Assembly (NCBI RefSeq): GCF_003605405.2
Contig: NZ_QYTW02000011.1
Location: 1-64,000 of the forward strand
DNA length: 64,000 nucleotides
Direction: 5' to 3'
From: Siminovitchia terrae
GTDB lineage: Bacteria > Bacillota > Bacilli > Bacillales > Bacillaceae_C
Part shown: positions 1,500 to 60,429 of the stretch, piece after piece
Layout of the letters: every line of letters starts with the position of its first letter
Numbering within the stretch: the first letter of the stretch is position 1
The notes under the pieces: model-generated
Database searches by the model: none
What the model was told of the DNA's origin: nothing
The model's input: only the letters and a program-made list of their open reading frames with translations
Made by a program: the position numbers and the translations under genes

Positions 1500-1692
1500 C
1501 AAATACGCCTTGGCGTATTTGCGCCCAGATTTTATCGAGCTTAAGCTCGATAAATTCCCTCTGAAAATCTGTGGCATCCTCCGGAGGCTTTAACTTTATT
1601 CAGCCGGGGTTTGACCCGCTACTGAATGGAATACCAATATGCTTTCATCTCACCACTTACAGAAGTGGAAGATTTCTGCTGAATGAAGTTAA
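1500..1692 (+). repeat. Interspersed repeat, copy 1
   Basis: 193-bp copy of the family described in the findings. Here the first stem is perfect (AAATACGCC/GGCGTATTT), followed by stems at TTATCGAGCTTAAGCTCGATAA and ACCACTT/AAGTGG. It lies in the intergenic region between the GNAT gene and the serine hydrolase. An apparent 61-residue reading frame over it is a by-product of the repeat. Confidence 0.9.
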
Positions 1693-1797
1693 TATTTTCC
1701 ACACGATAATCCGAATATCCCCAAAATTTTCTTATTTAAAATTGCCGATTAATTAGTCTTTCCATTGTAAGATACATATTTTAAGACCCGTTTTTCT

Positions 1798-3159
1798 TTA
1801 GTTACTTATTGTCTCTGCTATTTGTACTTCGGTACCATCGATAATTTTTACTAGTTCCTTACTTCCTTCTGTCGTAAAATCAACATCTATTGTTAGTCCT
1901 CTTATGAAGAAATTATTCTCTGTTTTAGCGTGCAGTTCGAGTTTCATTGAACCAGGCATCTTGATAAATAGTCTGTTGTTTTCTAAAAAAACATTAATGA
2001 TTAAATCTGGATGGTCTATTAGGGCATAATTACCGACGTGACGTTTTAAAATATCTTCTGGTAAAACTTGAGCATGTTCTAATCGAGGTCTTTCCTTAGC
2101 AATTTCATAAGGCAGATCAAAAGCAGCTTGCTCAATCGCATGTAAGATATGTTGATCAAAATCGAAATCTTGTTCCTTGTTTCTTAGCACGATAATAACA
2201 ATTTCATGGTCCATGAAGCGTTTAAGAATAGTTACGTACCCTGGCCAACCTCCACTATGCCAAATAATTTGACCTTTTTCTTCATTATCCTCTATAATCC
2301 AACCCAACCCATATTTATATGGTGTATCAATTCCTGTTTTTGGTGGTGTATAAGCTTCTCTTAGTAACACATCATTGATAAGAGCACCCGTGCTTAGTGC
2401 ACGCTCATAAAGGTATAGATCACCAACAGTTGATTGAATACCACCATCACCAAGCATTCCATCCAGATAGGTAACCATTTTTGACTCCTCAAAATCATCT
2501 GCTAAAACATACTCGCCTTCATATACGTCGTAGACATACCCGAATGCATAATCGTCAATTTCTATATTTTCTTTTCTAACGCCAATAGCTTGAGTACGAG
2601 TCATTTTAAGTGGTTTAAAAATATTCTCTTGTAAAAAATCAGCAAAATCCATGTCGGTTATACGTTCAACGATGAGTGCGAGTAAAATATAGCCAGTATT
2701 GCTATATTCAACACGCTCATTTGGTGCAAATAGACGCTCAGGTTTGTATTTGATTAAATACCTAAGTAAGTCGTCATTGTCAGCGATTTTCGCTTTATCC
2801 CAGTACACCTCAAATAGATCTAAATAATCAGGGAGTCCGCTCGTGTGGTTAAGTAAATGTCGAATCGTAATGCCTCCATAAGGGAGATCTGGTATCCATT
2901 TATTCAGGTAATCATCAAGACTCAGCTTACCTTCTTGAACAAGTAGTAAAATTGCGGTTGCTGTAATCGGCTTTGAAACAGATGCAAGATTAAAAACAGA
3001 TCGAGATGTTAATGGACGATTTGTTGACATGTCAGCATCACCGAAAGCACCTTCGTAAAGAATCTCGCCTTTTTTAGCGACAAGAACTGTACCATTTAAT
3101 AATTGTTTTTCTTTAATATATTGGAATAAGTTTTCTAAGTTAGCTTTTATGTCTGCCAT
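1798..3159 (-). CDS. Serine hydrolase, class C beta-lactamase/DD-peptidase fold
   Basis: 453-residue member of the beta-lactamase-related serine hydrolases (Pfam Beta-lactamase; esterases, DD-peptidases). The catalytic SxxK motif is SVSK near residue 60, the YxN motif is YSN near residue 150, and the third box is HSGG near residue 301. There is no signal peptide (MADIKANLENLFQYI), so it is probably cytoplasmic and more likely an esterase or peptidase than a secreted beta-lactamase. A C-terminal domain of about 110 residues resembles the lipocalin-like tails of this family. It overlaps the upstream MarR gene by 20 bases, so the two are co-transcribed and translationally coupled. Confidence 0.85.
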   Translation of the reverse strand: MADIKANLENLFQYIKEKQLLNGTVLVAKKGEILYEGAFGDADMSTNRPLTSRSVFNLASVSKPITATAILLLVQEGKLSLDDYLNKWIPDLPYGGITIRHLLNHTSGLPDYLDLFEVYWDKAKIADNDDLLRYLIKYKPERLFAPNERVEYSNTGYILLALIVERITDMDFADFLQENIFKPLKMTRTQAIGVRKENIEIDDYAFGYVYDVYEGEYVLADDFEESKMVTYLDGMLGDGGIQSTVGDLYLYERALSTGALINDVLLREAYTPPKTGIDTPYKYGLGWIIEDNEEKGQIIWHSGGWPGYVTILKRFMDHEIVIIVLRNKEQDFDFDQHILHAIEQAAFDLPYEIAKERPRLEHAQVLPEDILKRHVGNYALIDHPDLIINVFLENNRLFIKMPGSMKLELHAKTENNFFIRGLTIDVDFTTEGSKELVKIIDGTEVQIAETISN

Positions 3160-3637
3160 GATTAGTTTCCTCCCAATCTTGTTTTGTACATTTTTTTTCT
3201 ACAATCTTACTTAGTTTTGTAAGGATTTTTTTAAGTTCTTCTATTTCACTCAAGTCCATTTCCGAGTAAAAACGATTAATAATTTCACGATTTATTTTTT
3301 CTTCCTTTTCAAAATGTCGAATTCCTTTATCTGCTAGTTGCACAAGTATTTCACGTCTATTTTTGGGATTAATCGTCCTCATTAAATAATTTTCATCTTC
3401 GAGCTTATTAACGATCTGTCCAACAGCACTCGATGTTATTTTCATTAGTCGAGCAATTTCTCCAATAGAAATTTTTTCATGATCTTTAACAATATCCATT
3501 AGAATCGTTTGATTATTAGAAAAATCATCATCAAGTAAAGATTGATATTCTTTAATGATGATTTTATTCATTGTATAATGCATCTCACTAATTTCAGTAA
3601 CGAGTTCAAATAATTTATCTCCATCATCACTTTTCAT
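3140..3637 (-). CDS. MarR-family transcriptional regulator
   Basis: 165-residue winged-helix regulator. The HTH region is visible as ISIGEIARLMKITSSAVGQIV (residues about 57-77), followed by the wing with RTINPKNRREILVQLADKG, the usual MarR pattern. The ATG has GGGAG 8-9 bases upstream. It is the first gene of a two-gene unit with the serine hydrolase, so it probably regulates that gene and itself; the direct repeats upstream are candidate operators. Ligand unknown. Confidence 0.85.
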   Translation of the reverse strand: MKSDDGDKLFELVTEISEMHYTMNKIIIKEYQSLLDDDFSNNQTILMDIVKDHEKISIGEIARLMKITSSAVGQIVNKLEDENYLMRTINPKNRREILVQLADKGIRHFEKEEKINREIINRFYSEMDLSEIEELKKILTKLSKIVEKKCTKQDWEETNHGRHKS

Positions 3638-3656
3638 GTATTAACACTCCCTTAAT

Positions 3657-3712
3657 TATAAATTCAACTTTAATATAAACATAAATTTATTATAAATACA
3701 ACTTTAATATAA
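3657..3712 (-). promoter_or_regulatory. Direct-repeat operator/promoter of marR operon
   Basis: Two 22-bp near-identical direct repeats (3657-3678 and 3691-3712, one mismatch) of the form TATAAATwCAACTTTAATAT, spaced 34 bp start to start. On the minus strand they overlap a plausible promoter, TTGTAT, 17 bp, TTATAT. This placement suggests binding sites for the MarR protein encoded just downstream, which is inference. Confidence 0.55.
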
Positions 3713-3833
3713 TGCAAGGTTAAGTAATTAAAAACAAGAAATTAATCCCAACCAACTTACCAACTAAAACCTTTTATAATCCGTTTTATCTTCCTCCTTA
3801 ACTACCTCTTAATTTTAGGCGAGCGATTCTCAT

Positions 3834-4026
3834 CAAATGCGCCTTGGCGTATTTGCGCCCAGATTTTATCGAGCTTAAGCTCGATAAATTTCCTCTGAAA
3901 ATCTGTGGCATCCGCCGGAGGCTTTAACTTTATTCAGCTGGGGTTTGACCCCCCACTGAATGGAATACCAATAGGCATTCATCTCACCACTTACAGAAGT
4001 GGGAGACTTCTGCTGAATGAAGTTAA
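3834..4026 (+). repeat. Interspersed repeat, copy 2
   Basis: 193-bp copy with all stems present. It sits in the 460-bp gap between marR and mnmH. The 75 bases after it have a short open frame (TISWFSGETVAHIFDRIIKK) that may be the tail of a lost gene. Confidence 0.9.
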
Positions 4027-4101
4027 ATTCTTATAAAAATATCGACAAACTATTAGCTGGTTTAGTGGAGAAACAGTAGCTCATATATTCGATCGTATTA
4101 T

Positions 4102-4148
4102 AAAAAAAGAAGATCATCCAAAGTTGTCTGGACGATCTTCTTTTTTTG
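4102..4148. terminator. Bidirectional rho-independent terminator
   Basis: Strong stem AGAAGATCATCCA/TGGACGATCTTCT (one mismatch) flanked by A-run and T-run, so it works in both directions. It ends the selD-mnmH transcript immediately after the mnmH stop. Confidence 0.85.
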
Positions 4149-4149
4149 T

Positions 4150-5193
4150 TTAGGCTCCCATTTTGCTTTGCTGTATGCCTTCAAGCAGCTTATTGAATGC
4201 ATCATCAACAGAATCCGCTTGAACCGTAATTTTTTGGGATTCAGGATAATGGGAGGCGGAATATTCATATCTTGGATCATAATAATATTCCAGCAGCAGC
4301 CGGACAGCCTGTGTGAATTCTCCTTCTTCTAGATGCGCTTCTATTTGCTTTGCGACAGGGGTATGGATCTTCTTTTTAATGTAACGGAATGCCTCTTGAA
4401 ACCGTTCCGGATGGCCCCAAGGTTCATATTCTTCAATGATGTTTTTCACCCGCTCTTCTAGCGGCAAGTCTATAAAAATTTGCAGACCCTTTTCTTTTTT
4501 ATCATAAATGATATCTGGCAAATAAACTCTACCAATCCGTTTGCTCTCTCCCTCTATAAAAACAAACTGCTCATTTTCATATTCCAGCATTTCTGTCACA
4601 AGTGCAGAATCGAACTTCTTTTGATTGCTCGGCGTCAGCCCGATCTGACCGAAGATTGATCCACGATGTCCCGCCATTTTTTCAAGGTCTATTACTGGAT
4701 ACCCTTTTTCTTTCAATTTCTGTAAAATATATGTCTTGCCTGTCCCAGTATATCCATTTAAAACAAGCAACTTCGGACGGAATTTCCCTGTTTCCAGGTA
4801 ATTGACAATCCAGCGTCGATAAGACCGGATACCTCCGCCTAGCCGATTTGCACGAATTCCCATCAAATCAAGGACAGTTGCCGCGGTTTTGCTCCGCATT
4901 CCTCCGCGCCAGCAAAATACCGTCATAGGCGTTTCAATCTTTTTGAATTCACCAATGAATTCGGGGAGCTTTTTTGAAAAGATAGCCAAGCCTCTCTCCA
5001 TCGCAGCTTCTTTTCCCACTTTTTTATAAATCGTTCCAACTTCAGCACGCTCTTCATCGTTGAAGACAGGGATATTGATACTGCTTGGAATCGTCGCCTC
5101 TTTGAATTCTTTGGGTGAGCGGACATCGATTATTGTATGCGGTTCTGTATCTTTTTTTGAGAGTAAATCAGATACAGTAATATCATGAAACAT
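4150..5193 (-). CDS. mnmH: tRNA 2-selenouridine synthase MnmH (SelU/YbbB)
   Basis: Replaces sulfur by selenium in 2-thiouridine at the wobble position of certain tRNAs, using selenophosphate. The N-terminal rhodanese domain (about residues 1-130) carries IIDVRSPKEF and the catalytic Cys in FCWRGGMRS. A P-loop domain follows with GYTGTGKT near residue 147. Length 347 is normal. It lies 16 bases after selD, which makes the selenophosphate donor, so the two form one operon. No selA or selB is visible here, which fits use of selenium for tRNA only. Confidence 0.95.
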   Translation of the reverse strand: MFHDITVSDLLSKKDTEPHTIIDVRSPKEFKEATIPSSINIPVFNDEERAEVGTIYKKVGKEAAMERGLAIFSKKLPEFIGEFKKIETPMTVFCWRGGMRSKTAATVLDLMGIRANRLGGGIRSYRRWIVNYLETGKFRPKLLVLNGYTGTGKTYILQKLKEKGYPVIDLEKMAGHRGSIFGQIGLTPSNQKKFDSALVTEMLEYENEQFVFIEGESKRIGRVYLPDIIYDKKEKGLQIFIDLPLEERVKNIIEEYEPWGHPERFQEAFRYIKKKIHTPVAKQIEAHLEEGEFTQAVRLLLEYYYDPRYEYSASHYPESQKITVQADSVDDAFNKLLEGIQQSKMGA

Positions 5194-5209
5194 TATTTTT
5201 CACTCCAAG

Positions 5210-6259
5210 CTACTGGACCGTAATCCTTCCTTTATTTTCCCCAAGCACCTCTCCGATTACCTGTGCTTCAACCCCATTGTCTCGCAATTCCTCTGCAAGC
5301 CGTTTGGCTTCTTCCGAATCAACAGATAAAAGTAATCCGCCAGATGTGACGGCATCACATAAGATCCATTTCTCAACTTGGCTCATGGACTCGGGATAGG
5401 TCACTACATCTTCCAAGTGGGCAAAATTATTTTTTGTTCCTCCTGGTACAGCCCCAGACTTAGCCAATTCTTGAACACGTTCCAGTATTGGTACCTGTTT
5501 ATAAAAAATCCGGATTCCAACATTGCTTCCTTTCGCCATTTCGGACGCATGTCCCAGAAGTCCGAATCCTGTTACGTCTGTTGAAGCATGAACCGTGTAC
5601 TTCTCGCTGATTTCAGCAGCTTTCCGATTCAATGTTGTCATCACCTTTGTAACACGTTCAATTTCCTTTTCTGACAGCAGTCCTTTTTTCAATGACGTTG
5701 TCATGATTCCAACACCGATAGGCTTTGTCAACACAAGACTGTCCCCAGGCTGGGCACCCGCATTCGTTCTCACTTTATCAGGATGGATAAGTCCAGTGAC
5801 AGCCATGCCGAATTTCGGTTCCTGATCATCAATGGAATGCCCTCCAACTAGAACAGCATCTGCCTCTTTCAGTTTATCGCCCGCCCCTCTTAAAATGTCT
5901 GCCAGAATGCTTTTATCGAGGGCAGCAATCGGGAAAGCAACAACATTCAAGGCTGTGATCGGCTTTCCTCCCATAGCGTAAACATCACTAATCGCATTCG
6001 CAGCAGCAATCTGGCCAAAATCATAAGGATCATCTACAATCGGAGTAAAAAAATCAACGGTCTGAACAATAGCTGTCGTATCATTTAAACGATACACACC
6101 AGCATCATCGCTTGTATCCAACCCCACAAGTAAGTTCGGATCGGAAATGCCCTGCGGGAGTTCTTGCAAAACCTTTGCCAAATCCGCAGGCCCGATTTTG
6201 CATCCACAGCCTCCTTTGGAAGACAAGGAGGTCAATTTTACAGGTGAAGAACTTGTCAT
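5210..6259 (-). CDS. selD: Selenide, water dikinase SelD
   Basis: Makes selenophosphate from selenide and ATP. The catalytic segment GGCGCKIGPADL has Cys at the position that is Cys or Sec in the family and the essential Lys. The glycine-rich and Asp-rich nucleotide/Mg sites are present (VGLDTSDDAG, ASTDVTGFGLLGHA). I place the start at ATG 6259 (MTSSSPVK), with AAGGG about 10-15 bases upstream; a TTG at 6271 is also in frame. Partner of mnmH downstream. No selenocysteine codon is needed for this copy. Confidence 0.95.
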   Translation of the reverse strand: MTSSSPVKLTSLSSKGGCGCKIGPADLAKVLQELPQGISDPNLLVGLDTSDDAGVYRLNDTTAIVQTVDFFTPIVDDPYDFGQIAAANAISDVYAMGGKPITALNVVAFPIAALDKSILADILRGAGDKLKEADAVLVGGHSIDDQEPKFGMAVTGLIHPDKVRTNAGAQPGDSLVLTKPIGVGIMTTSLKKGLLSEKEIERVTKVMTTLNRKAAEISEKYTVHASTDVTGFGLLGHASEMAKGSNVGIRIFYKQVPILERVQELAKSGAVPGGTKNNFAHLEDVVTYPESMSQVEKWILCDAVTSGGLLLSVDSEEAKRLAEELRDNGVEAQVIGEVLGENKGRITVQ

Positions 6260-6304
6260 GATTATATCCAACCCTTCAATATGTAGTTTAATTATTTTAA
6301 CATA

Positions 6305-6406
6305 CTATGGAGCCATAGGTTGTTGGGCTGATTTTTTCAAGTCAGAAACAGCTTCTTCCTTCTCCCTATCTTTATACACAAAAAAGAGCGATCCTAACAA
6401 TAACAT
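6305..6406 (-). CDS. Possible small membrane protein upstream of selD
   Basis: 33-codon frame, MLLLGSLFFVYKDREKEEAV and onward, ending KKSAQQPMAP. A short hydrophobic N-terminus is followed by a charged stretch, as in single-pass small proteins. AAGGG lies about 11 bases upstream, and it sits 46 bases before selD on the same strand. I do not recognise it, and its size makes a chance frame possible. Confidence 0.3.
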   Translation of the reverse strand: MLLLGSLFFVYKDREKEEAVSDLKKSAQQPMAP

Positions 6407-6709
6407 AATCACCAGCCCTTTATTCAAACTGAATGAACTTACGTCTGTAAAAAACCTGCCCTAATGATCGATCGCAGGCTGCCAGTCAACTATCCAATAA
6501 TATGTTACTGTCGTTGCCGTCACTTCGATTTTCGGGACAACATAGACCATAATCGAAATAAAATATTTACCTCCCATCCTAAAAGGAAAGTTATCCGAGT
6601 TTTGTTTCTTTCATTTTACAAATAAATCCTATGGTTTTCTATGCACTGTATGGATTCGACGGAGATGTGAAAGGATAAGTTCATATATTTCGATTAGGAG
6701 TTGTTTAAA

Positions 6710-6901
6710 ATGGGAGCAATTGAAAGAAACGGATATAGATTTGAACCGGAATACAGTGTTATCGAACAAAATGGAGCCATACACGTTTATCATGAAGGTG
6801 AGTTCATTGAGGAACTGCAATTTTCTTTCTCAGGCAAGTACCCGGGATTAGAACAGATAGAAATATTGGTCGATGAGTATTGTGAACAAAAGGGGATATG
6901 A
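6710..6901 (+). CDS. YbxH-like small conserved protein
   Basis: 63-residue protein beginning MGAIERNGYRFEPEYSVIEQ. It closely resembles the small Bacillus YbxH family of unknown function, recognised from memory of the pattern MGAIERNGY-x-FEPE-SVI. The ATG at 6710 has TAGGAG at 6695-6700. A TTG nine bases upstream in the same frame is less likely. It is rich in Glu and aromatic residues, with no membrane segment. Monocistronic as far as seen. Confidence 0.75.
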   Translation: MGAIERNGYRFEPEYSVIEQNGAIHVYHEGEFIEELQFSFSGKYPGLEQIEILVDEYCEQKGI

Positions 6902-7310: not shown

Positions 7311-7347
7311 GAAAATGTATTCAAAATTCTAGGAGGATTATTAAAAA

Positions 7348-7655: not shown

Positions 7656-7674
7656 TAAGGAAGGAAGATGAAAC

Positions 7675-8523: not shown

Positions 8524-8543
8524 ACCATATTTGATATGTATGT

Positions 8544-8735
8544 CAAATGCGCCTTGGCGTATTTGCGCCCAGATTTTATCGAGCTCCGCTCGATAAATTT
8601 CCCCTGAAAATCTGTGGCATCCGCCGGAGGCTTTAACTTTATTCAGCCGGGGTTTGAACCCCAGCTGAATGGAATACCAACATGCATTCATCTCACCACT
8701 TACAGAAGTGGGAGACTTCTGCTGAATGAAGTTAA
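8544..8735 (+). repeat. Interspersed repeat, copy 3
   Basis: 192-bp full-length copy, close to the apparent consensus. Stems: 8545-8563, 8571-8600, 8640-8672 (TTCAGC, GGGGTTTGAACCCC, GCTGAA) and 8695-8713. Inverted segments TTAACTTTATTCAGC and GCTGAATGAAGTTAA bracket the right half. Confidence 0.9.
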
Positions 8736-8780
8736 ACTGGCATCTTTTTGAAATAAAGCTAGTTAAAGAAGCCAGTTTGA

Positions 8781-19720: not shown

Positions 19721-20647
19721 TTGGAACAAAAGCTTGATTTTATTATCAGCGAACTGCAAAATTTGAATCAAAAATTCTCCAATTTGGAAGAGAAAACAGC
19801 CACTAAACAAGACCTTAAAGCCGTTGAAGGCAAAATGTCCTCCCTTGGGGAAAGACTGACTACCCGTATTAATAAAGTTGAAGGTAAGCTTTCCGACAAA
19901 ATGATTAATCTCGAAACCAATATTGGTGACGTCGAAGATAAACTATCTGACAAAATGATTAATCTTGAAACCAATATGAATAACGTCGAAGATAGACTCT
20001 CTGACAAGATTATTAATCTCGAAACCAATATGAATAACGTCGAAGGTAAGCTCTCCGACAAAATGATTAATCTCGAAACCAATATGAGTAACGTCGAAGG
20101 TAAGCTCTCCGACAAAATGATTAATCTCGAAACCAATATGAGTAACGTCGAAGATAGACTCTCTGACAAGATTATTAGTCTCGAAACCAATATGAATAAC
20201 GTCGAAGGTAAGCTCTCCGACAAAATGATTAATCTCGAAACCAATATGAGTAACGTCGAAGGTAAGCTCTCCGACAAAATGATTAATCTCGAAACCAATA
20301 TGAGTAACGTCGAAGATAGGCTCTCTGACAAGATTATTAGTCTCGAAACCAATATGAATAACGTCGAAGATAGGCTCTCCGACAAAATGATTAATCTCGA
20401 AACCAATATGAGTAACGTCGAAGGTAAGCTCTCTGACAAAATGATTAATCTTGAAACCAATATGAGTAACGTCGAAGGTAAGCTGGACCGATTAATCAAA
20501 AAGGTTGATGATTATCATATTGAAAACATAAATGCTGAAAACATCCTTATACATGAAATAAGGACAATGCGTGAAAATGTTATCTTTGTAAATCGTAGAG
20601 TTGCGGATGCAGAGCTTGAACTGAACGCTTTAAAGCAACATAAATGA
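19721..20647 (+). CDS. Coiled-coil protein with eleven 18-residue repeats
   Basis: 308 residues from TTG, with AAAGGAG nine bases upstream. After a short N-terminal coil (MEQKLDFIISELQNLNQKF) come 11 almost identical units of the type KLSDKMINLETNMSNVEG, residues about 55-253. A tail without repeats follows (LIKKVDDYHIENINAENILI, then ELELNALKQHK). Highly charged, no membrane or signal segment, all helix-favouring: a rod, probably oligomeric. 18 residues equal five helical turns (heptad plus hendecad). I cannot assign a role; the tail resembles small Bacillus coiled-coil proteins of unknown function. Confidence 0.8.
   Translation: MEQKLDFIISELQNLNQKFSNLEEKTATKQDLKAVEGKMSSLGERLTTRINKVEGKLSDKMINLETNIGDVEDKLSDKMINLETNMNNVEDRLSDKIINLETNMNNVEGKLSDKMINLETNMSNVEGKLSDKMINLETNMSNVEDRLSDKIISLETNMNNVEGKLSDKMINLETNMSNVEGKLSDKMINLETNMSNVEDRLSDKIISLETNMNNVEDRLSDKMINLETNMSNVEGKLSDKMINLETNMSNVEGKLDRLIKKVDDYHIENINAENILIHEIRTMRENVIFVNRRVADAELELNALKQHK
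19884..20481 (+). repeat. 54-bp coding tandem repeat array
   Basis: Eleven 54-bp units with very few base changes. A 162-bp higher-order block (three units) is itself duplicated: the pattern of N/S and G/D changes repeats at units 3-5 and 6-8. The near-identity at DNA level indicates recent expansion, so copy number should vary between strains. Confidence 0.9.
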
Positions 20648-28361: not shown

Positions 28362-28604
28362 GACCACATTCCCCCTAATATGTAATCATAACAATGAATG
28401 AATACCCGAAAATCATTTTGTCAAACCTCTAAAAGAAAAAGGATTTTGAAAAAGCGATTGCGAATAGAACAAAAGTATAACATCCTTATCTGTACAGAAA
28501 CTCCTCGCGAATCCCTATTTTACTCACTTTCAGATGAAATTCTTGTCGGATTAAGGGGTATTTTTCGAGATATTTTTCAACTTTTTTCGAAACAGTGCTC
28601 CAAT
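28362..28604. other. Intergenic stretch before repeat copy 4
   Basis: No gene supported. A plus-strand frame (28398-28600) has no RBS and owes part of its length to the repeat that follows. Confidence 0.4.
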
Positions 28605-28796
28605 CAAATGCGCCTTGGCGTATTTGCACCCAGATTTTATCGAGCTCCGATCGATAAATTTCCTCTGAAAATCTGCGGCATCCGCCAAAGGCTTAAACTT
28701 TATTCAGCCGGGGATTGAACCACCGCTGAATGGAATACCAACATGCATTCATCCTACCACTTACAGAAGTGGGAGATTTCTGCTGAATGAAGTTAA
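28605..28796 (+). repeat. Interspersed repeat, copy 4
   Basis: 192-bp copy with several substitutions (TTTGCACCC, GCGGCATCCGCCAAAGG), so somewhat diverged. It lies between the penicillin-binding protein and deacetylase genes. Confidence 0.9.
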
Positions 28797-29092
28797 ATCT
28801 TCCCTGAGTGAAAAAAGAGATAAAAAAGCATATAAAAACCCTGATTTCAAGAATGAATTTTCACGAGATCAGAGTAGTAAATATCTGTATCCAAAAGGCT
28901 TCAAAACGAAGATAACTTCTGGTGACCCTCCTGTAACCCTGTTCAGTGCTGTTCCTTTTGAATCAGTTGGATAAACAAAATCATCATTAATCTCCCTCCA
29001 ATCTAACACAATTTCTCAGACATGTATAATCCCCGCTGTTTTACAAATTCTACCCATATAAACCTTCTTAAGAAAAGGATGAAGAATTCCAA
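28797..29092 (+). other. Remnant 3' coding end, then deacetylase promoter region
   Basis: A stop-free plus-strand stretch of about 58 codons (28798-28974) starts right at the repeat boundary and ends at TAA. It reads SSLSEKRDKKAYKNPDF and later YLYPKGFKTKITSGDPPVTL. It looks like the C-terminus of a real protein whose front is missing; I do not recognise it. The rest is AT-rich upstream DNA of the deacetylase. Confidence 0.35.
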
Positions 29093-30141: not shown

Positions 30142-30920
30142 TTAATTAATTTTATTTTCTTCATTTAATCCACTGGTTTGAAAGGCGTCCTCTTTATTAT
30201 CATACCGCGCAATCAAGGCTACTTTTCCTTCGGTTTTTCATAAAAGTATAGACTGTGGCTTGTCCTCTAACATCACCATTTTCTTCATACCATGTACCAT
30301 CTTGTTCAAGAACAATATGATGCTCCTTAGCAAAACGAGTAAGCTTTTCTAAATGAAGCCTCGCTCGTTCCAACCAATCAGCTAAATGTTGGCTTCCAAT
30401 AAACGAACCTTTTGGTCCAAAAATTTTGACATTCGTATGCGTCAATTCAAGTAGTGAGGGTATATCTTTTTTATATTCGACTTTTCCATCCATTGTTCAG
30501 CCGTTTCAATTGCTGATGGTAGTATTACTCTTTCAGATTTATGTTTATGGAAAGAAGAAGAACGTTCAATAAGTTCTTCTTCTTTGATGATAAAAGCGTA
30601 AAACAAATGCGCCTTGGCGTATTTGCGCACAGATTTTATCGAGCTCCACTCGATAAAATCTATGGCATCCGCGGAGGCTTTAACTTTATTCGGCCAGGGT
30701 TTGAACCCCCACTGAATGGAATACCAATATGCTTTCATCTCACCACTTACAGAAGTGGGAGACTTCTGCTGAATGAAGGTAAAAGTTCCTTGACCACTTG
30801 TTTGCTAGGTTCATCTATAAATAGATATGACTGAAGTAAAGATTCCTTTAGAGTATAAAAATGTTCTTCCGAAATAACTTCTTCAACGGTCTTTGTTTTA
30901 ATGTCTGCGTAACTCATCAT
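30142..30920 (-). pseudogene. NTF2-like domain gene broken by repeat copy 5
   Basis: Start ATG 30920 has AAGGAG seven bases upstream and reads MMSYADIKTKTVEEVISEEH to KQVVKEL. Then repeat copy 5 interrupts. Excising 30604-30782 rejoins the frame as KELFYAFIIKEEELIERSS and onward to PSAIETAEQWM. Two more frameshifts follow: near 30490 (continuing as YKKDIPSLLELTHTN) and near 30222 (continuing as EGKVALIARYD). The C-terminal half resembles SnoaL/NTF2-like proteins with WLERARL and TWYEENGDVRGQATVYTFM. Three lesions make it dead. Confidence 0.75.
30604..30782 (+). repeat. Interspersed repeat, copy 5 (inside a gene)
   Basis: 179-bp copy, shorter because part of the second stem region (TTTCCTCTGAAAATC) is lost. 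Flanks GCGTAAAA and AAGTTCC join to restore a coding frame on the minus strand. There is no target-site duplication. This copy defines the ends: CAAATGCGCC at left, (G)TTAA-type at right (GGTAA here). Confidence 0.92.
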
Positions 30921-32658: not shown

Positions 32659-32738
32659 AGGTAAATAAAGCTATTTCAGAAAATCAATATACCTTTATTT
32701 CTCTATCTTTTGTCAATTACCCTAATTCTTTCTACAAT

Positions 32739-32867
32739 CAAATGCGCCTTGGCGTATTTGCGCCCAGATTTTATTCAGCTGGGGTTTGAACCCCAACTGA
32801 ATGGAATAACAATATGCATTCATCTCACCACTTACAAAAGTGGGAGACTTCTGCTGAATGAAGTTAA
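32739..32867 (+). repeat. Interspersed repeat, copy 6 (internal deletion)
   Basis: 129-bp copy. The segment between CCAGATTTTAT and TTCAGC is missing; the junction lies at a short shared TTTAT word, so the deletion probably arose by microhomology. Confidence 0.9.
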
Positions 32868-40300: not shown

Positions 40301-40892
40301 GAGATCCGGGAATCGTGCGATTTTCTGGTTTATTGTGCGAAAAACAAGATTATCGTGCGATATTTCTATTTATCGAGCGAAATCCAGGTTTATCGTGCGA
40401 AAATCATATTTATCGTGCGAGTTCCGGGTTTCGTGTGAAATTCACAGTTATCGTGCGAAAAACAAGATTATCGTGCGACATTTCTATTTATTATGCGAAA
40501 TCTGGGTTTATCGTGCGAAATCTGGGTTTATCGTGCGAAAATCATATTTATTGTGCGAGTTCCGGGTTTCGTGTGAAATTCACAGTTATCGTGCGAAAAA
40601 CAAGATTATCGTGCGACATTTCTATTTATTGTGCGAAATCCAGGTTTATCGTGCGAAAATCATATTTATTGTGCGAGTTCTGGGTTTCGTGTGAAATTCA
40701 CAGTTATCGTGCGAAAAACAAGATTATCGTGCGACATTTCTATTTATTGTGCGAAATCTGGGTTTATCGTGCGAAAATCATATTTATTGTGCGAGTTCCG
40801 GGTTTCGTGTGAAATTCACAGTTATCGTGCGAAAAACAAGATTATCGTGCGAAAATCATATTTATCGTGCGAAATCCAGGTTTATCGTGCGA
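40301..40892 (+). repeat. 30-unit minisatellite with TTATCGTGCGA core
   Basis: About 30 tandem units of 18-20 bp; the constant end is TTATCGTGCGA (variants TTATTGTGCGA, TTTCGTGTGA) and the front nine bases vary among six types: A AAAACAAGA, B CATTTCTAT, C AATCCAGGT or AATCTGGGT, D AAATCATAT, E GTTCCGGGT, F AATTCACAG. The order A-B-C-D-E-F repeats four times as a higher-order unit of about 118 bp. All three plus frames are open in long stretches, but no start has an RBS, so I read it as non-coding. Confidence 0.9.
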
Positions 40893-41022
40893 AAGTCAGT
40901 TTTCACACATGTGAGCTCGTTCCTGCTTAAAACCGAAGGTGTAACTATGTAAAGTTGATATTTTTTACGTTCAATACTTACCTCGGTCGTGGATGATCAC
41001 TTAAAACCAATTGCATTATCGA

Positions 41023-45720: not shown

Positions 45721-45913
45721 AATACAGCGGGGTGCAAGTTAAAAGAAAAAATTTTCTCGCCAATACGGAACAATGGAAGTTTACCTTCAGTTGAAGGAAA
45801 AAAGAGAAGGATATACGTAGTTTTCTGCTTGATGAACATTTAAAATAGGGGCCTCGGCCAGTAGCAAAATATAGAGAGACAGAACGCCCCTCCTTTTTTA
45901 TCGAAAACGGGGT

Positions 45914-46104
45914 TTAACTTCATTCAGCAGGAACCTCCCACTTCTGTAAGTGGAGAGATGAATGTATATTGGTATTCCATTCAGTGGGGGTTCAAACCCC
46001 GGCTGAATAAAGTTAAAGCCCCGGCGGATGCCACAGATTTTCAGAGGAAATTTATCGAGCGAAGCTCGATAAAATCTGGGCGCAAATACGCCAAGGCGCA
46101 TTTG
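45914..46104 (-). repeat. Interspersed repeat, copy 7 (only inverted copy)
   Basis: 191-bp full copy in minus orientation, the only one of 11. It lies between ywnA and the kinase gene, in convergent-gene DNA. Confidence 0.9.
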
Positions 46105-46123
46105 ATATAAAAACTAAAGAACC

Positions 46124-47563: not shown

Positions 47564-47770
47564 CCTATTGTAGTATCTCTATTATCCCAGAAAACTCTAA
47601 TTAATCTTGCTCATGAGAATTCCCCTTTTAATAGGACAGTTCATAATCACAAACAGGGCATTTTGGAACAAGTTCAGAAGGAATTTTACAATCAACCGTT
47701 TGGACTTTGGAAGTGGCTAAAATCCGACGGCATTATTAATGTTTTCTATTACACTGTAGAGAAAGTATAT
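47564..47770 (+). pseudogene. Gene fragment cut by repeat copy 8
   Basis: Stop-free 69-codon stretch with coding-like composition: TLINLAHENSPFNRTVHNHK, ILEQVQKEFYNQPFGLWKWL, IINVFYYTVEKVY. It runs straight into repeat copy 8. No RBS-supported start. After the repeat, short frames end near 48016. The family is not recognised. Confidence 0.4.
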
Positions 47771-47961
47771 CAAATGCGCCTTGGCGTATTTGCGCCTAGA
47801 TTTTATCGAGCTTCGCTCGATAAATTTCCTTTGAAAATCTGTGGCATCCGCCGGGGCTTTAACTTTATTCAGCCGGGGTTTGAACCCCCACTGAATGGAA
47901 TACCAATAGGCTTTCATCTCACCTCTTACAGATGTGGGAGACTTCTGCTGAATGAAGGTAA
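47771..47961 (+). repeat. Interspersed repeat, copy 8
   Basis: 191-bp full copy, ending GGTAA. It continues the reading frame of the upstream fragment, but that frame is common to all copies (MRLGVFAPRFYRA... in plus). Confidence 0.9.
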
Positions 47962-48005
47962 ATGGATCAAGGGCTCTTTCATTCAACTTATATCCTCTCT
48001 AAACA

Positions 48006-49481: not shown

Positions 49482-49671
49482 CTCCTATTAATATAGTTAA
49501 GTTAATTAAACTAAACTATAATCCATAAGAGTTTAAATGTCAAAGCTTATGAAATAGAGTTAAGAAGTGAAGTTTTTATCTTATTAACCTGAACGAATAC
49601 CCTATCACATTTGTAAAATGACAAACCTGAATCAAGGTGGACACAGTCCATTTAGAAAAATATGTAATAAT
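49482..49671. other. Intergenic stretch before repeat copy 9
   Basis: AT-rich promoter DNA of the hydrolase; no gene seen. Confidence 0.5.
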
Positions 49672-49844
49672 CAAATGCGCCTTGACGTATTTGCGCCCAG
49701 ATTTTATCGAGCTCCGCTCGATAAATTTCCTCTGAAAATCTGTGGCATCCGCCGGAGGCTTTAACTTTATTCAGCTGGGGTAATACCAATAGGCATTCAT
49801 CTCACCACTTACAGAAGTGGGAGACTTCTGCTGAATAAAGTGAA
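49672..49844 (+). repeat. Interspersed repeat, copy 9 (small deletion)
   Basis: 173-bp copy. The hairpin half TTTGAACCCC...CTGAATGGA is lost between GGGG and TAATACC; the end reads GTGAA. After it, a remnant frame (SLLRGKPEEIIHAKMIYNQP) ends at TAA near 49937. Confidence 0.9.
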
Positions 49845-49983
49845 AACCCGCGACCGAAATCCTTGCTCCGGGGAAAGCCGGAAGAGATCATCCATGCCAA
49901 AATGATCTACAACCAGCCAGATCCCGAAGCTGCGTAAAAAATGAGAAAGGCAGTAAATTTGTCAATCATTCTTCCAATCCCTT

Positions 49984-54641: not shown

Positions 54642-54651
54642 TAGACTGTCT

Positions 54652-56016
54652 TCATAATCGCTTATATACAGTCATTGTCAACAACCAACTGCTGACTATG
54701 ACTCCAGTAAAAAGCAATAACATATTACTATATAAATAAGTGGATGGATCACTAATTATCGGCAAAAACTTTTGATCCAATAGCCGTATCGATAATAGGC
54801 CTCCAACAATGGCAATACCTGTTCCTTCTGATAAAAAGCTTGTGAAATTAAGCAAGCTCATTCCAGCACCAGCCTCTTCTTGTTTCAAGCTACTTGAAAC
54901 GACTGTGGAGATAACGGTTTTCGCAAATGAAAGACCTCCAAAAACAAAAACGAACGTAATGGTTATAAGCCAAGGTGTCATTCCCATAAAGAAGGCAGAT
55001 ACAATAAAGCTGAAGCTAATGAACACAATACCTAGTGTTAATACAGACAAAGGTCCTTTCTTATCTACAAGTAATCCTCCAATGTAACCAAATATAAGCA
55101 CACTCATCGTTCCAGGAAAAATGACCATACTCCCAATCATCGCAGTGTTTAATTGATAAACATCTTTCATCATATAAGGAACCATGGAAACATATCCAAC
55201 TACTGTACCAAATATAAGCCCACCACAAAGGATTCCAATCATAAATGAAGCATTTTTTCCCAATGAAGGTTCAACAAAAGGATTAGATACTCTTGTAATA
55301 TGTTTTAAAAAGATTAAAAGAAAGAGAATACTAATCACAAGAAAAGTCATTTTGTAATACGTTGTAAATAGCATAAAAAACACGATACCAATGGACATAA
55401 AAATAATCCCTGCAACATCAAAGGAACCTTTTATCGTTTCTTCTTCTTTTAATAATTTCATCAAGAATGGAACAGTTATAAATGTAACAATAGGAATGAG
55501 CAGTAAGTAAGACCAATGTATATAGTGGGCAATCATTCCTCCAATAGCCGGTCCTATCCCTTCACCCATTGCTACTATAGATCCGATAAGGCCAAATGCC
55601 TTCCCTCGGTTTTCCTTTGGAATATATCTGGCAACGACAACCATTACTAGTGAAGGAAATGCAGCTGCGCCAACTCCTTGTATCAATCGAGCCAAAATAA
55701 GTATAGGAAAAAAATGATGTCCAGTAAATCCAATCAATGATCCTATACAATTCACTATAATCCCAAATAGGAGTAATTTTTTAATACCAAGCTGATCAGA
55801 CAGCTTTCCATATACAGCTGTTCCTATAGAAAAGGTTAACATAAAAGCTGTATTCACCCAGTTTGTACTTGCTGGGGCTTTATTAAAATCATGGGCTATA
55901 TCAGGTAAAGAGACATTCAGAACCATTTCATTTAATACGCTAAAAAATGAAAGAACACAAAGCCATATTAAAATTTGATTATGGCGTAAAACGGACTGTG
56001 AATAAGGTGTATACAC
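54652..56016 (-). CDS. tet(L)-like: Tetracycline efflux pump, Tet(L)-like
   Basis: 454 residues, 14 membrane helices, tetracycline-metal/proton antiporter (also Na/K exchange in the TetL group). The opening [20 protein letters not shown], the segment [20 protein letters not shown] and [20 protein letters not shown] match TetL almost residue for residue; the loops differ more. GTG start with GGAGGG five bases upstream. A leader peptide with its own RBS precedes it, so expression is probably induced by tetracycline through ribosome stalling or reinitiation. Distinct enough that identity to known Tet classes should be computed. Confidence 0.93.
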
Positions 56017-56056
56017 TTTTTCCCTCCATTAATGAGGGTTAACGTAGTTTATAGGG

Positions 56057-56110
56057 TCAATGATACGCTCCCTCTTTAAATTGCACCCAATGATATTTAC
56101 TGTACTTCAT
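56057..56110 (-). CDS. Tet(L)-type leader peptide
   Basis: 17 residues, MKYSKYHWVQFKEGAYH, with AGGAGG nine bases upstream. Same layout and similar residues (VQFKEG versus VQLKEG) as the leader of tet(L). Its stop is 41 bases before the pump start; the dyad GTTAACCCTCATTAATGGAG region lies between. Confidence 0.85.
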   Translation of the reverse strand: MKYSKYHWVQFKEGAYH

Positions 56111-56431
56111 AAAAACGCCTCCTATACATAATTTTTATACTACTTATCTAATAGAGTAAAACGGTAAAGCAAAGGCTGTATCGAAAATATGCACCAGATA
56201 AGTGTTTGCATCCAAGTGAATGAATCCTTTTGTTCTTTTCTTGCAAAACTTCCTTTGTACCACGATAGACAAATCAATCAAATATCAACTCATCAAGCCT
56301 TTAATTATAAACTCCATCAGGTATTGACCGAGCTGTGGAAAATGGCAAATCTCAATGTCTTCCCTTGTGTGTATCAATATAGATTAAAGTTGTCAATATG
56401 GCAATAAAAAACTCACTCTCTATATCTCCTC
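56111..56431. other. Leader promoter and gene-free stretch
   Basis: The first 50 bases hold AT-rich promoter DNA of the tet leader (GTATAAAAA). A plus frame at 56189-56407 has no RBS; its sequence is not recognised. No gene supported. Confidence 0.4.
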
Positions 56432-56568
56432 TTATTTAAAGTCGTGTTCAAGAAATTCTAACACCTTATCAGAAAGGAAATCGCGACACTCATTTTTAGT
56501 CGTCACCAACCAGTCGTTTATATTGAAGGGATTGATGCAGTGAATGGATATTGCGAGGTAAGGCTTAT
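56432..56568 (-). pseudogene. Gene tail abutting repeat copy 10
   Basis: 45-codon coding-like tail ending FLSDKVLEFLEHDFK at TAA 56434. It begins at the repeat boundary (KPYLAISIHCINPFNINDWL). The front is not visible on the other side of the repeat. Family not recognised. Confidence 0.4.
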
Positions 56569-56759
56569 CAAATGCGCCTTAGCGTATTTGCGCCCGGATT
56601 TTATCGAGCTTCGCTCGATAGATTTCCTCTGAAAATCTGTGGCATCCGCCAGAGGCTTTAACTTTATTCAGCCGGGGTTTGAACCCCTACTTCGTGGAAT
56701 ACAATAGACATTCATCTCACCACTTTAGAAGTCGGAGACTTTCTGCTGAATGAAGTTAA
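56569..56759 (+). repeat. Interspersed repeat, copy 10
   Basis: 191-bp copy, one of the more diverged (CTTAGCG, CTTCGTGG, GTCGGAG). Confidence 0.9.
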
Positions 56760-56874
56760 AAAAACGTTATAACATTCATTATCTATTCCGATTTACTTAT
56801 CCCAAAAGATTAAAAATGATAGTAGTAACCTCAACCATCTACGAATGACTTGTCTTCTTTATTTATGATCCCTA

Positions 56875-58044
56875 CTATGAAACTACTATTTTTTGATTCA
56901 AATGTCCTATAAACAGAAAGATAAAGCCTAGTAACAGAATAGCGGAAGCAAAAATCAATGCACCATTATAGTTGTTTGAGTGGGATGTCAAAATCCCAGC
57001 TACAACAGGCCCTATAATTTGTCCAATCCCAAAAGCAGCTGTTAAATAACCAATCGATTTATTCGTATTTGGAAAGGATAAGCTTTGCCCCTTGGAAACG
57101 ATCAATGTGGTAATCCCCATAAAGGTTCCCCCAAATAAGAAAGCACCTAGAAAAACACCAATAGCACTTTGAGTAAAAACTGGTAAAATGACTCCAATGA
57201 TCTGGACAATATAAGCAACATACAAAGTGTTGATATGACCGTGTTTTTTGGCCATTAAGGTCCAAATCAAACAGGAAGGAATGGCTGCTAATCCTACAAA
57301 CGCCCAACTTAAAGAAGCATAATCCTTTAACTGCGGGATTCCTTGCACAATAGCTACAATAAACGTGCCAGTAATGATGTAACCAATGCCTTCACATCCG
57401 TATGAGAAAAGCAACCATTTGAAAATAGGTTCTTTCTGACCTTTATGATTACTCGCAGGCTTCTCGGGACGTACCAATTGTTTGTTCAATTCATTGTCCT
57501 TTGTCCAGAGAAACGAAACAATGCTGAGCAAAGCAGAAATGATTCCCAAGCAAATCCATGAACCCTTCCAACCTAAAGTACGATTAAAGACCGGTATGAC
57601 AAGACCACACAAAAGTATCCCCAACCCTACACCGCCATAGAAGATTCCCGACCAATGTGGCCGTTTGGCTGCCTTGAGCGATTCCAGAACAATACTTGAA
57701 GATAAAACAAATACGATACCGCTGCTAAAACCAGAAACAAGTCTTAGAATCAGCCAAATCGCTACGTTTGTTGTCACCCCCATCCATATAGTCGTGATTA
57801 TATTGATGACCAGATATATTTTTAAACGCTTGGCTGCTCCTTTATTCCAGCTAAAAAAGCCAGGCATTAATGCTCCCAAAAGATAACCGATATAATTAAA
57901 AGAAGCCAAGTATCCAGCCGTTGAATGAGAAAAATGGACATCATTTTGCATGAATGGAAGAAGCGGAGTGTATGCAAACCTTCCTATCCCCATTGAAATC
58001 ATTAAAGAAGCGATACCGGCTAGCAAAACGAAAATAGGTCTCAT
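56875..58044 (-). CDS. YbfB/YjiJ-family MFS transporter
   Basis: 389 residues from ATG 58044 (GTG 58053 possible), about 12 membrane helices. Opening MRPIFVLLAGIASLMISMGI GRFAYTPLLPFM is the family's signature. Its start overlaps the nitronate monooxygenase stop by one base, so translation is coupled. Substrate unknown; probably exports or imports a product linked to that enzyme. Confidence 0.88.
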   Translation of the reverse strand: MRPIFVLLAGIASLMISMGIGRFAYTPLLPFMQNDVHFSHSTAGYLASFNYIGYLLGALMPGFFSWNKGAAKRLKIYLVINIITTIWMGVTTNVAIWLILRLVSGFSSGIVFVLSSSIVLESLKAAKRPHWSGIFYGGVGLGILLCGLVIPVFNRTLGWKGSWICLGIISALLSIVSFLWTKDNELNKQLVRPEKPASNHKGQKEPIFKWLLFSYGCEGIGYIITGTFIVAIVQGIPQLKDYASLSWAFVGLAAIPSCLIWTLMAKKHGHINTLYVAYIVQIIGVILPVFTQSAIGVFLGAFLFGGTFMGITTLIVSKGQSLSFPNTNKSIGYLTAAFGIGQIIGPVVAGILTSHSNNYNGALIFASAILLLGFIFLFIGHLNQKIVVS

Positions 58045-59129
58045 CACAACCACTTTGCTTTTTTATTTTTCACCATTTCATCCACCTGAGAACGAATATC
58101 TGAAATCGTTTCGCTTGCTGATTGATATTGGCTTGAACGTGAATTTTGACCGCACCAAAGGGACATCCATTCGGTCCGTTTTTGTTTGGACGCTTCACGT
58201 CGAATCGATGTTGTTAATGTATTTTGAATGGGGTATTTTGGAAGTTCCTTTTCATGCTTCATCATTTTCAAGATGAACTCATTTCGAATGCCCCTTGCCG
58301 GCTTTCCACTAAATGTAGAGGTCACAACCGTTTGCTCCTCATTGCTGTTCAAGATCGCTTCTTTATGCGATTTTGTTACTCCGCTTTCCAGACTGGTGAC
58401 AAAGGCTGTTCCCATTTGGACAGCTTGTGCCCCTAATACCAAAGCTGCCAAAACACCTCTACCATCCATGATTCCACCTGCTGCAATCACTGGAATCTCA
58501 ACATGATCTACAGTTTGTGGAACAAGCGCCATCGTTCCAATCATAGCGTCCTCAAAAGAGCCCATAAAGGTTCCACGATGCCCCCCGGCCTCACTTCCTT
58601 GTACAACCACCATATCCATACCGTTTTCTTCATTGGCGATTGCTTCTTGTACAGTCGTTGCGGTTCCGATCATCACAATTTTTCTCTTTTTTAATTGCTG
58701 AACTGTTTCTTTTGATGGAATTCCAAAAGTAAAACTGCATACAGGCACCTGTTCCTCCATAATGATTTCTATTTGTTTTTCAAAAATGGATTCAGTTGTT
58801 TTTTTCACTTTCGGGATTTCTGATATGTTTAATTGTTCTCGAAAAGGCCGGAGCCATTCATTCGCTTTTTCAATTTCTTCTTCAGATACATCCTGGATTT
58901 CAGGAATAAATAGATTTACGCCAAAGGGTTTATTCGTAAGTTGTTTAACCTTAAGAATGCTCGATCGCAATTGGTCAGGGGTCATATAACCGGCACCGAG
59001 GGTCCCAAGTCCACCTGCATTTGAAACAGCAGCAACAAGTTCTGGTGTTGTGATACCGCCAGCCATCCCTGCTTGTATAATTGGATATTTTATATTCAGG
59101 TTTTGGGTAACTTTATTCTCATGCCACAT
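58044..59129 (-). CDS. Nitronate monooxygenase (2-nitropropane dioxygenase type)
   Basis: 361 residues from ATG 59129 (MWHENKV), with AGGAAA nine bases upstream; a longer frame to 59189 is possible. FMN-dependent TIM barrel: IIQAGMAGGITTPELVAAVS, VVVQGSEAGGHRGTFMGSF and PVIAAGGIMDGRGVLAALVLGA (phosphate/FMN binding). Oxidises nitronates such as propionate-3-nitronate, detoxifying them. Operon with the MFS gene, divergent from a LysR regulator. Confidence 0.92.
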   Translation of the reverse strand: MWHENKVTQNLNIKYPIIQAGMAGGITTPELVAAVSNAGGLGTLGAGYMTPDQLRSSILKVKQLTNKPFGVNLFIPEIQDVSEEEIEKANEWLRPFREQLNISEIPKVKKTTESIFEKQIEIIMEEQVPVCSFTFGIPSKETVQQLKKRKIVMIGTATTVQEAIANEENGMDMVVVQGSEAGGHRGTFMGSFEDAMIGTMALVPQTVDHVEIPVIAAGGIMDGRGVLAALVLGAQAVQMGTAFVTSLESGVTKSHKEAILNSNEEQTVVTSTFSGKPARGIRNEFILKMMKHEKELPKYPIQNTLTTSIRREASKQKRTEWMSLWCGQNSRSSQYQSASETISDIRSQVDEMVKNKKAKWL

Positions 59130-59202
59130 TTCATATTTCCTCACTTTCTGTTTTAATTTTTCAAATCCTTTACTCTTTACTGTAATCATGATAAAACATT
59201 AA

Positions 59203-59228
59203 GTAAAATGATATTTTTTATCGTTTAC
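59203..59228. promoter_or_regulatory. Dyad between nitronate operon and lysR
   Basis: GTAAAATGATA-N5-TATCGTTTAC, imperfect dyad in the 141-bp divergent gap. Candidate LysR binding site. Confidence 0.4.
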
Positions 59229-59270
59229 CATCAAAAAAAGTGATGATTAGATGATGTTGGGAGGTAACTC

Positions 59271-60149
59271 ATGAATATCGAAGACCTGCGTGTTTTTAAA
59301 GAAGTAGCAAAAGAAGGTAACATCACAAAAACTGCTAATAACCTAAACTTTGTCCAATCAAATGTAACGGCAAAAATGAAACGAATCGAACAAAAATATG
59401 GAACAAAGTTATTTTATCGCCATAAGCATGGGGTCACACTTACTTCTCCAGGAAAAATCCTTTTGTCCTATACAGAACAAGTTCTGCAGCTAATGGACGA
59501 AGTTGAAAAAAAGTTAAAAAGCTCCGCCCCTTCTGGAACACTGTCAATAGGGACTATGGAAACAACCGCTGCAAGTCGTTTACCAGATATTTTATCCGTT
59601 TATCATGAGCAATATCCGGAAGTGGAGTTAGCCCTTCGAACCGGAACTACAGAAGAACTGATAGAATCATCTTTGAATCGTGAGATTGATGGAGCATTTG
59701 TTGCGGGTGAAGTCAATCATCCAGAATTGGAAGAACTGGAGGTTTTTGAGGAGGAATTGGTTTTGATTTCAAAGGAAAACATCCTTTTCAGCCTAGATTT
59801 TAACCAACTAAAAAATCAAATCATTATTGTATTTAAGTCTGGATGTTTTTACAGAGGTATTTTTGAGAAGTGGCTGAAATCAGAAGGGATTATACCAACA
59901 AAGATAATGGAACTGAACACTCTGGATGGCGTGATTGGTTGTGTTAAAGCCGGATTAGGTATAGCTCTTATAACAAAATCAGTGGCAGTTCGACTCCACC
60001 AAAGTGAGAATATCAAACAGTTCACACTGCCAAAAGAATACGGTATGATTTCCACAAAATTTATAAATCATAAAGACATCGTAAAAACAGCTGCATTCCG
60101 TGAATTTATGAAGGGCATCAGTTTCGGGGCGTGCTCGAATAAACCCTAA
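59271..60149 (+). CDS. LysR-family transcriptional regulator
   Basis: 292 residues. N-terminal HTH: MNIEDLRVFKEVAKEGNITK TANNLNFVQSNVTAKMKRIEQKYG; C-terminal substrate-binding fold (about 88-290). GGGAGG precedes ATG by seven bases. Divergent from the nitronate monooxygenase/MFS operon, its probable target; nitro compounds or related molecules could be the co-inducer (inference). Confidence 0.9.
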   Translation: MNIEDLRVFKEVAKEGNITKTANNLNFVQSNVTAKMKRIEQKYGTKLFYRHKHGVTLTSPGKILLSYTEQVLQLMDEVEKKLKSSAPSGTLSIGTMETTAASRLPDILSVYHEQYPEVELALRTGTTEELIESSLNREIDGAFVAGEVNHPELEELEVFEEELVLISKENILFSLDFNQLKNQIIIVFKSGCFYRGIFEKWLKSEGIIPTKIMELNTLDGVIGCVKAGLGIALITKSVAVRLHQSENIKQFTLPKEYGMISTKFINHKDIVKTAAFREFMKGISFGACSNKP

Positions 60150-60238
60150 TATCTGAGAAATCGCCATATTACTCATCAATAAAACCTATTTTTACAGAGT
60201 GTTCTAAGTTGGACATTTGAACTCACTAGCGCTGCAAT

Positions 60239-60429
60239 CAAATTCGCCTTGGCGTATTTGCGTCCAGATTTTATCGAGCTCCGCTCGATAAATTTCCTCT
60301 GAAAATCTGTGGCATCCGCCGGAGGCTTTGACTATATTCAGCCGGGGTTGAACCCCCACTGAATGGAGCACCAATATGCATTCATCTCACTACTTACAGA
60401 AGTGGGAGATTACTGCTGAATGAAGTTAA
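60239..60429 (+). repeat. Interspersed repeat, copy 11
   Basis: 191-bp copy with minor changes (AAATTCGCC, TTTGACTATATT). It lies between lysR and iclR. Confidence 0.9.

Follow-up and report, generated by a model that had tools for sequence, protein, structure and literature searches.

The window analysed here, 64,000 nucleotides of Siminovitchia terrae DNA (NZ_QYTW02000011.1, positions 1 to 64,000; part of contig C3 in a genome of 5.30 Mb and 68 contigs), carries eleven copies of a 195-nt repeat that is very probably a non-autonomous single-strand transposon of the IS200/IS605 type, i.e. a palindrome-associated transposable element (PATE). Comparison of filled and empty sites reveals that a 190-nt element was inserted 3' of a pre-existing TTTAA, with nothing duplicated and nothing lost. 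Elements of this kind are known; what is notable is the copy number, the orientation signal and the large, apparently selected fold.

Repeat unit and its copies

All eleven copies listed in a preliminary description of the window, made from its letters alone, were found again. Full-length copies lie on the + strand at 1498..1692, 3832..4027, 8542..8736, 28603..28797, 47769..47962, 56567..56760 (with small indels) and 60237..60430, and on the - strand at 45913..46106, the sole inverted copy. Three others, also on the + strand and previously listed at 30604, 32739 and 49672, have internal deletions of about 12 nt (30602..30783), 64 nt (32737..32867) and 19 nt (49670..49845). The CAAATGCGCC strand is on + in 10 of 11 copies and on - only at 45913-46106, as had been claimed; in the first copy, for example, + carries the strand with CAAAT and - the IS605-type top strand.

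The unit itself had been given as 192 bp. The repeat stands, but its true start is two bases earlier (AT-CAAAT) and its length is 195 nt, the final five bases being TTAAA on that strand. The start CAAATGCGCC does not apply to every copy, since those previously placed at 1500 and 60239 read CAAATACGCC and CAAATTCGCC. The GTTAA-like end is present, but GTTAAA does not wholly belong to the element, TTAAA being already there in the empty site.

A whole-genome search, proposed in the same description, was performed with a 19-mer taken from the conserved hairpin, allowing three mismatches at most. It retrieved 549 places, 240 on + and 309 on - in contigs of arbitrary orientation; the reversed control pattern retrieved 2. 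The repeat is neither a product of chance nor local to the window. Because the pattern, which catches 10 of the 11 window copies, misses the one at 56567, 549 places are probably a lower bound.

Boundaries, target and empty sites

Polarity of the unit was settled because filled and empty sites could be compared. On the strand opposite to that first described, hereafter the top strand, the unit reads TTTAA and then the element CTTCATTCAGC...GCATTTGAT, with TTTAACTTCATTCAGCAGAAG as left end and GGCGCATTTGAT as right end. The exact empty site, TTTAA on the - strand (TTAAA on +), lies at 57822..57826 inside an open reading frame (ORF) at 56875-58053 that resembles transporters of the major facilitator superfamily. 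Its orthologue in Bacillus norwichensis Sa1BUA2 (G003) holds a copy (L063:14662-14845): in the orientation of the window's minus strand, the element CTTCATT...GCATTTGAT stands between AAGCGTTTAA and AAATATATC, where the window reads AAGCGTTTAAAAATATATC. A second empty site is provided by Bacillus sp. HF117_J1_D (G001, locus L161), in which the S. terrae copy L014:6967-7161 is matched by exactly 5 nt, diverged from TTTAA to TGCAA. In a third pair (L026:11714 versus L078 of G003), at L014:3887 and in a pair adjacent to the gene of a REP-associated tyrosine transposase (RAYT; REP, repetitive extragenic palindrome), one partner is without the element and the flanks are eroded. Lack of empty sites had been named beforehand as an argument against mobility; since empty sites exist, this argument falls.

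Two copies are arranged head to tail at L016:7539-7923, and their junction is exactly as expected of insertion after the TTTAA of the first copy. The element has no terminal inverted repeats: neither of its consensus ends, TTTAACTT... and ...ATTTGAT, is the inverse complement of the other when compared by eye. Together with the empty sites, this bears out the earlier statement that inverted repeats and target duplications are both lacking, and it does not fit a miniature inverted-repeat transposable element. Beyond the unit, the 87 left and 85 right flanks have no consensus apart from being somewhat rich in T and poor in G on the CAAAT side.

Left end shared with TnpB-carrying elements

The unit starts with TTTAA-C-(9 nt)-CAGAAGTCTCCCACTTCTGTAAGTGGTGAGATGAATG. 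Among TnpB-carrying elements of the same genome, L095 and L101 start with TTTAACAACTTAGGGCAGAAGTCCCCTTCC...GGTGGGGGATGAATGC, and L098, and nearly so L088, with TTTATCATTTTCCGACAGAAGACTCCCACTTC...GTAAGTGGGAGATGAATG; in genome G004, L081 has TTTAACATAGTTAAGCAGAAGTCCCC...GGGGGATGAATGC just ahead of its TnpB gene. The same layout is present at L081, L085, L088, L095, L098 and L101, and also at L046 and L057 of G007. TTTAA precedes the left ends of L095, L101, L081 and L090, and ATTAA that of L093, as read from flanks and not from empty sites. All three TnpB-like proteins tested (L081, L087, L090) received the NCBIfam label RNA-guided TnpB. The window holds a remnant of such a gene (29..519, - strand); in DNA it is 94% identical to L090, a TnpB element of 398 aa with TTTAA ahead of its left end.

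In 463,049 bp of S. terrae sequence, both strands included, the pattern TTTA(A/T)C-9-CAGAAG(A/T)C occurs at only five places outside called copies. Four are left ends of IS605 type, one of which runs directly into a right end, giving a short terminal-only element, and the remaining place holds a 53-nt short form of the repeat. The latter (L017:3594-3646) comprises only the outer stem and first hairpin, is flanked by TTTAAC...GTTAAA and runs against the usual direction. At L022 (contig C13), a terminal-only element of about 70 nt has a TTTAT-type IS605 left end fused to its own GGTTCAA right end; other IS605 families here therefore also make short non-autonomous forms. In G007, the 19-mer pattern matched 20 places, most of them reading CACATTTAGAAGTGGGAGA, and the covariance model of the repeat none. 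Because some of these places adjoin Y1_Tnp fragments, they are taken as putative IS605-type left ends.

Of the 14 TnpB loci, 12 are on contigs where the majority direction of the repeat is known, and all 12 run along its top strand. This agrees with a shared mechanism, but genes in such genomes have a biased direction anyway. As to subterminal palindromes, the left end is similar to IS605-type ends; the right end has a hairpin but resembles no insertion sequence right end examined. It had been suggested that a full-length element with the same ends might carry tnpA or tnpB. No element with both ends was found in the sequence examined: the TnpB elements have the same left end and frequently the same target, yet their right ends differ.

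Orientation follows GC skew

Among copies of at least 60 nt (shorter BLAST pieces were dropped), 85 of 90 have the TTTAA strand on the G-rich strand (binomial p 8e-20), and these form the majority in 21 of 21 stretches. The sample consisted of the window and 20 stretches of about 20 kb from contigs with listed matches; copy density in it is biased, and we see no reason why orientation should be. In G003 the corresponding count is 33 of 35, giving 118 of 125 for both species pooled.

We wondered if neighbouring genes account for this polarity. With mechanically called ORFs, and with 6 of the 90 copies left out at stretch ends, the top strand is on the G-rich strand in 53 of 56 copies when both neighbour genes are on that strand, in 16 of 17 when the neighbours disagree, in 6 of 6 inside ORFs, and still in 4 of 5 when both neighbours are on the C-rich strand. 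Flanking genes do not explain the orientation.

In Firmicute chromosomes the G-rich strand is the lagging-strand template. The same would hold here, as judged from GC skew rather than from a mapped origin. The bias that had been linked to a replication template is real with respect to GC skew, the replication origin itself not being the reference.

Predicted fold and compensatory change

Folded as DNA, the copy at 45913 reaches -45.1 kcal/mol, compared with -20.9 +/- 3.2 for shuffled sequences (z -7.6). The predicted structure has two domains. The left one is multi-branched and closed by a 15-bp stem that takes in the target bases; the right one is a long interrupted hairpin.

Compensatory changes were counted on the fold of a single copy, used as a fixed structure, because RNAalifold gave 0 pairs on alignment A1. 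Within the genus (36 copies from S. terrae, G003 and G001), double changes affect 6 pairs against 5.7 in shuffles. Across lineages, double-sided change was observed in 40 of 68 pairs, against 18.6 +/- 2.8 in shuffles and 10-20 in slid controls. The underlying alignment A3 contains 22 sequences from 13 genomes, with one sequence each from four genomes of the own genus; it is a stricter remake of the 30-row A2, which held 8 reverse self-matches, and as it was fitted to the model, its counts lean towards structure. Taken together, the two counts suggest that the fold is selected in the moving lineage and not maintained in resident copies, as expected of a structure required for transposition that decays afterwards.

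Distribution in relatives

The nearest relatives are G003 and G001; longer orthologous stretches of G003 have about 79-94% DNA identity. The 19-mer pattern matched 174 places in G003, 59 in G001 and 15 in G005; single and double occurrences in G002 (1) and G004 (2) are no more than in controls. Covariance-model scoring was applied to 74 candidates at most per genome, so that counts for S. terrae (G000), G001 and G003 are lower bounds. Strong relatives in another genus were found in G032 (28 matches) and Lederbergia citrea (G022; 2 matches), and weaker matches in a further seven genomes; the remaining 21 of the 34 family genomes searched had none.

Seven S. terrae copies for which both flanks could be aligned have their sites occupied by a called copy in G003 as well, in many cases a worn or shortened one; in the window, G003 has a shorter copy at the site of 8542..8736, a worn one at that of 28603..28797 and a further one at that of 49670..49845. 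To judge from these shared sites, some insertions are older than the split of the two genomes. The majority consensus of the two genomes is identical letter for letter, and median divergence from it is 3.6% in S. terrae (93 copies) and 12.3% in G003 (24 copies), copies with 120 or fewer consensus positions left out. Measured by this divergence, the later burst is that of S. terrae.

Outside cellular genomes, no repeat matches were found among the phage sequences searched. In viral contigs, the exact right end occurs in one contig and the exact left hairpin in none. One diverged copy is present in a 29.9-kb contig of a viral collection (L219, IMGVR_UViG_2731957578_000001). The one plasmid match (L173:2501-2543; CP026602.1, Clostridiaceae) covers 43 nt with 91% identity to the left-end hairpin, in a stretch with no annotated transposase.

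Candidate transposases

All 34 genomes were searched with the PF01797 (Y1_Tnp) profile. S. terrae yielded four matches: an intact IS200-type TnpA (L029), a RAYT (P0001) and two broken genes. L029 was a candidate because the gene is intact and because its element, like the repeat, finishes in TTGAT. It was rejected as the mover, its left end being unrelated to that of the repeat; moreover, intact IS200/IS605-type TnpAs occur in genomes without any model match (e.g. G015, G019, G020, G025, G029, G031).

The RAYT gene is present in single copy at C13:34510-35076 and scores 70.8 bits with NCBIfam REP_Tyr_transpos (cut-off 80). Its early distribution was in favour of this candidate: it is found in G000, G001 and G003, and not in G002 and G004. 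In G000, G001, G003, G022 and G032, the gene is directly flanked by GGGGTCWGACCCC palindromes, exact or variant. At the S. terrae locus (L132:1250-2400) these REPs stand inverted on both sides, with a TTAA(C/A)G motif. The palindromes follow RAYTs of at least 55% identity, with two or more places in eight of eight such genomes (among them 55 places in G000, 105 in G010 and 68 in G017, where many of the listed places lie near its own RAYT at 796 kb); G005 (15) and G002 (6) have them too, though with no RAYT match. Both the GGGGTCWGACCCC flanks and the family-wide presence tables set RAYT back as the mover.

Most likely, the repeat was mobilised by a Y1 TnpA with TTTAA specificity that is now absent, broken or unassembled, and this is the weakest link in the interpretation.

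Proposed mechanism and alternative explanations

According to the transposon interpretation, the top strand would become single-stranded on the lagging-strand template, where its left half would fold into the multi-branched domain with the 15-bp stem and its right half into the long hairpin. A Y1 (HUH) transposase acting in trans would then cut after TTTAA and after TTGAT; the excised strand would be circularised, and the circle inserted 3' of TTTAA on a lagging-strand template elsewhere. Preferential capture of that template may be what causes the orientation bias. The guess of a non-autonomous IS200/IS605-like element, put forward in the preliminary description, gains from the lack of inverted repeats and duplication, the fixed pentanucleotide on one side, the IS605-type left end and the orientation by GC skew.

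Several observations weigh against it. Base-for-base agreement is limited to one empty site, the others having diverged or eroded flanks. The right end GCATTTGAT is unlike GGTTCAT and GGTTCAA, the right ends of the TnpB families encountered. The search of the S. terrae genome yielded no intact IS605-type TnpA, and the L029 element has a different left end and a TTGAT flank. G030 and G023, with 25 and 1 model matches, have no Y1_Tnp match at all. The 53-nt form at L017:3594, below the length limit, is inserted the opposite way and lowers the orientation count to 85 of 91. Strict pairing of target and guide was not upheld in G032 (18 loci representing 16 places, as L119/L183 and L130/L188 are the same two places), because most copies there keep TTTAA while the inner strand of the closing stem is mostly GTGAAA and not GTTAAA.

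The combination of an IS605-type left end (TTTAA) with a right end finishing in TTGAT, as in the IS200 element of the same genome, brings to mind a somewhat different entity: a single-strand DNA satellite whose fold is kept as a replicating unit across genera and which is moved in trans by any available Y1 or unrecognised enzyme. We regard this as unlikely. It is improbable in our estimation that the single-copy RAYT mobilises the 195-nt unit as an oversized REP. Relatives of P0001 with at least 71% identity and strong model matches do coincide in G000, G001, G003, G022 and G032, a repeat copy lies about 0.8 kb from one side of the RAYT gene in G001 and G003, and GTTAAAG precedes a hairpin both in the repeat and in the RAYT-adjacent REP. 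Yet the direct flanks of the gene are GGGGTCWGACCCC palindromes in these same five genomes, and no 195-nt copy is found within about 1.5 kb of the S. terrae RAYT. Presence is not matched either: G008, G010 and G017 carry a RAYT (55-62% identity) but no 195-nt match, while G005 (15 strong copies) and G030 (25 matches) are without a RAYT match.

The strong predicted fold, covariation across lineages and consistent polarity relative to GC skew would also suit a functional RNA or DNA site in each copy (regulator, terminator or strand-polar mark of chromosome architecture) kept by selection. This is very improbable: compensated pairs among the 36 copies of the genus do not exceed expectation, which likewise disfavours the structured-RNA guess made beforehand, copies are truncated or absent at orthologous sites, and orientation does not follow flanking genes. 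No Rfam family except tRNA reaches its gathering threshold in the window, matches at 1400-4200 being far below. Mobility by another route using the lagging-strand template, either reverse transcription of RNA by an enzyme like those of group II introns or an HUH enzyme outside PF01797, appears more improbable still. It would accommodate the missing cognate TnpA, the copies in G030 in spite of zero Y1_Tnp matches, and a fold exceeding the single hairpins usual at IS605 ends, but the repeat has its left end and target in common with IS605-type elements of this genome.

Comparison with known elements

IS608 and ISDra2 have subterminal hairpins at their ends. They are like the repeat in inserting 3' of a short fixed sequence without duplication and in preferring the lagging-strand template (PMC6006769); the repeat differs in having no tnpA or tnpB inside, TTTAA as target and TTTGAT at its right end. 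The IS1341-like TnpB elements of the S. terrae genome (L095/L101, L090/L093) likewise have TTTAA (ATTAA in L093) before the left end and a left-end motif and spacing similar to those of the repeat, but carry tnpB and end in GGTTCAT.

PATEs of Haloquadratum walsbyi (PMC3119063) similarly have no terminal inverted repeats, near-terminal palindromes related to IS605, a fixed targeting sequence and no transposase. They form homogeneous families that expand with full-length similarity in a host where intact IS200-type transposases are scarce. Compared with the elements as described there, the repeat has a bacterial host, about 550 places in one family, a large two-domain predicted fold, covariation across lineages and a strong orientation bias. 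Its assignment to PATEs, or non-autonomous IS200/IS605 elements, is only partial, as neither its right end nor the enzyme could be matched. REPs and REPINs with RAYTs (PMC3116915, PMC3733652) are also folded non-coding repeats linked to Y1 proteins; unlike the repeat, they are short palindromes flanking the RAYT gene, a role that is filled here by GGGGTCWGACCCC. The preliminary description had allowed for a known Bacillus family. The bcr1 repeat of the Bacillus cereus group (bcr) is named in PMC3733652. A literature search by pieces of the repeat sequence yielded no paper, and searches by topic yielded none with a Bacillus repeat of this kind in its title or abstract, which is weak evidence as subscription journals were mostly uncovered.

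The repeat offers a native, genome-scale record of apparent single-strand transposition, on which the lagging-strand model can be tested, and its orientation could help to infer the direction of replication in genomes not yet finished. A further question is by which enzyme hundreds of copies were moved in a genome now without an evident cognate TnpA.

Other repeats in the window

An array of roughly 20-nt units (TTATCGTGCGAAA...) at 40312-40898, probably a second repeat family, has counterparts of similar sequence at many further places in G003. The ORF at 19721-20647 (308 aa) contains a 54-nt tandem repeat of about 11 copies at 19867-20484, and its Pfam matches, mostly below cut-off, are to models of coiled-coil-like type.

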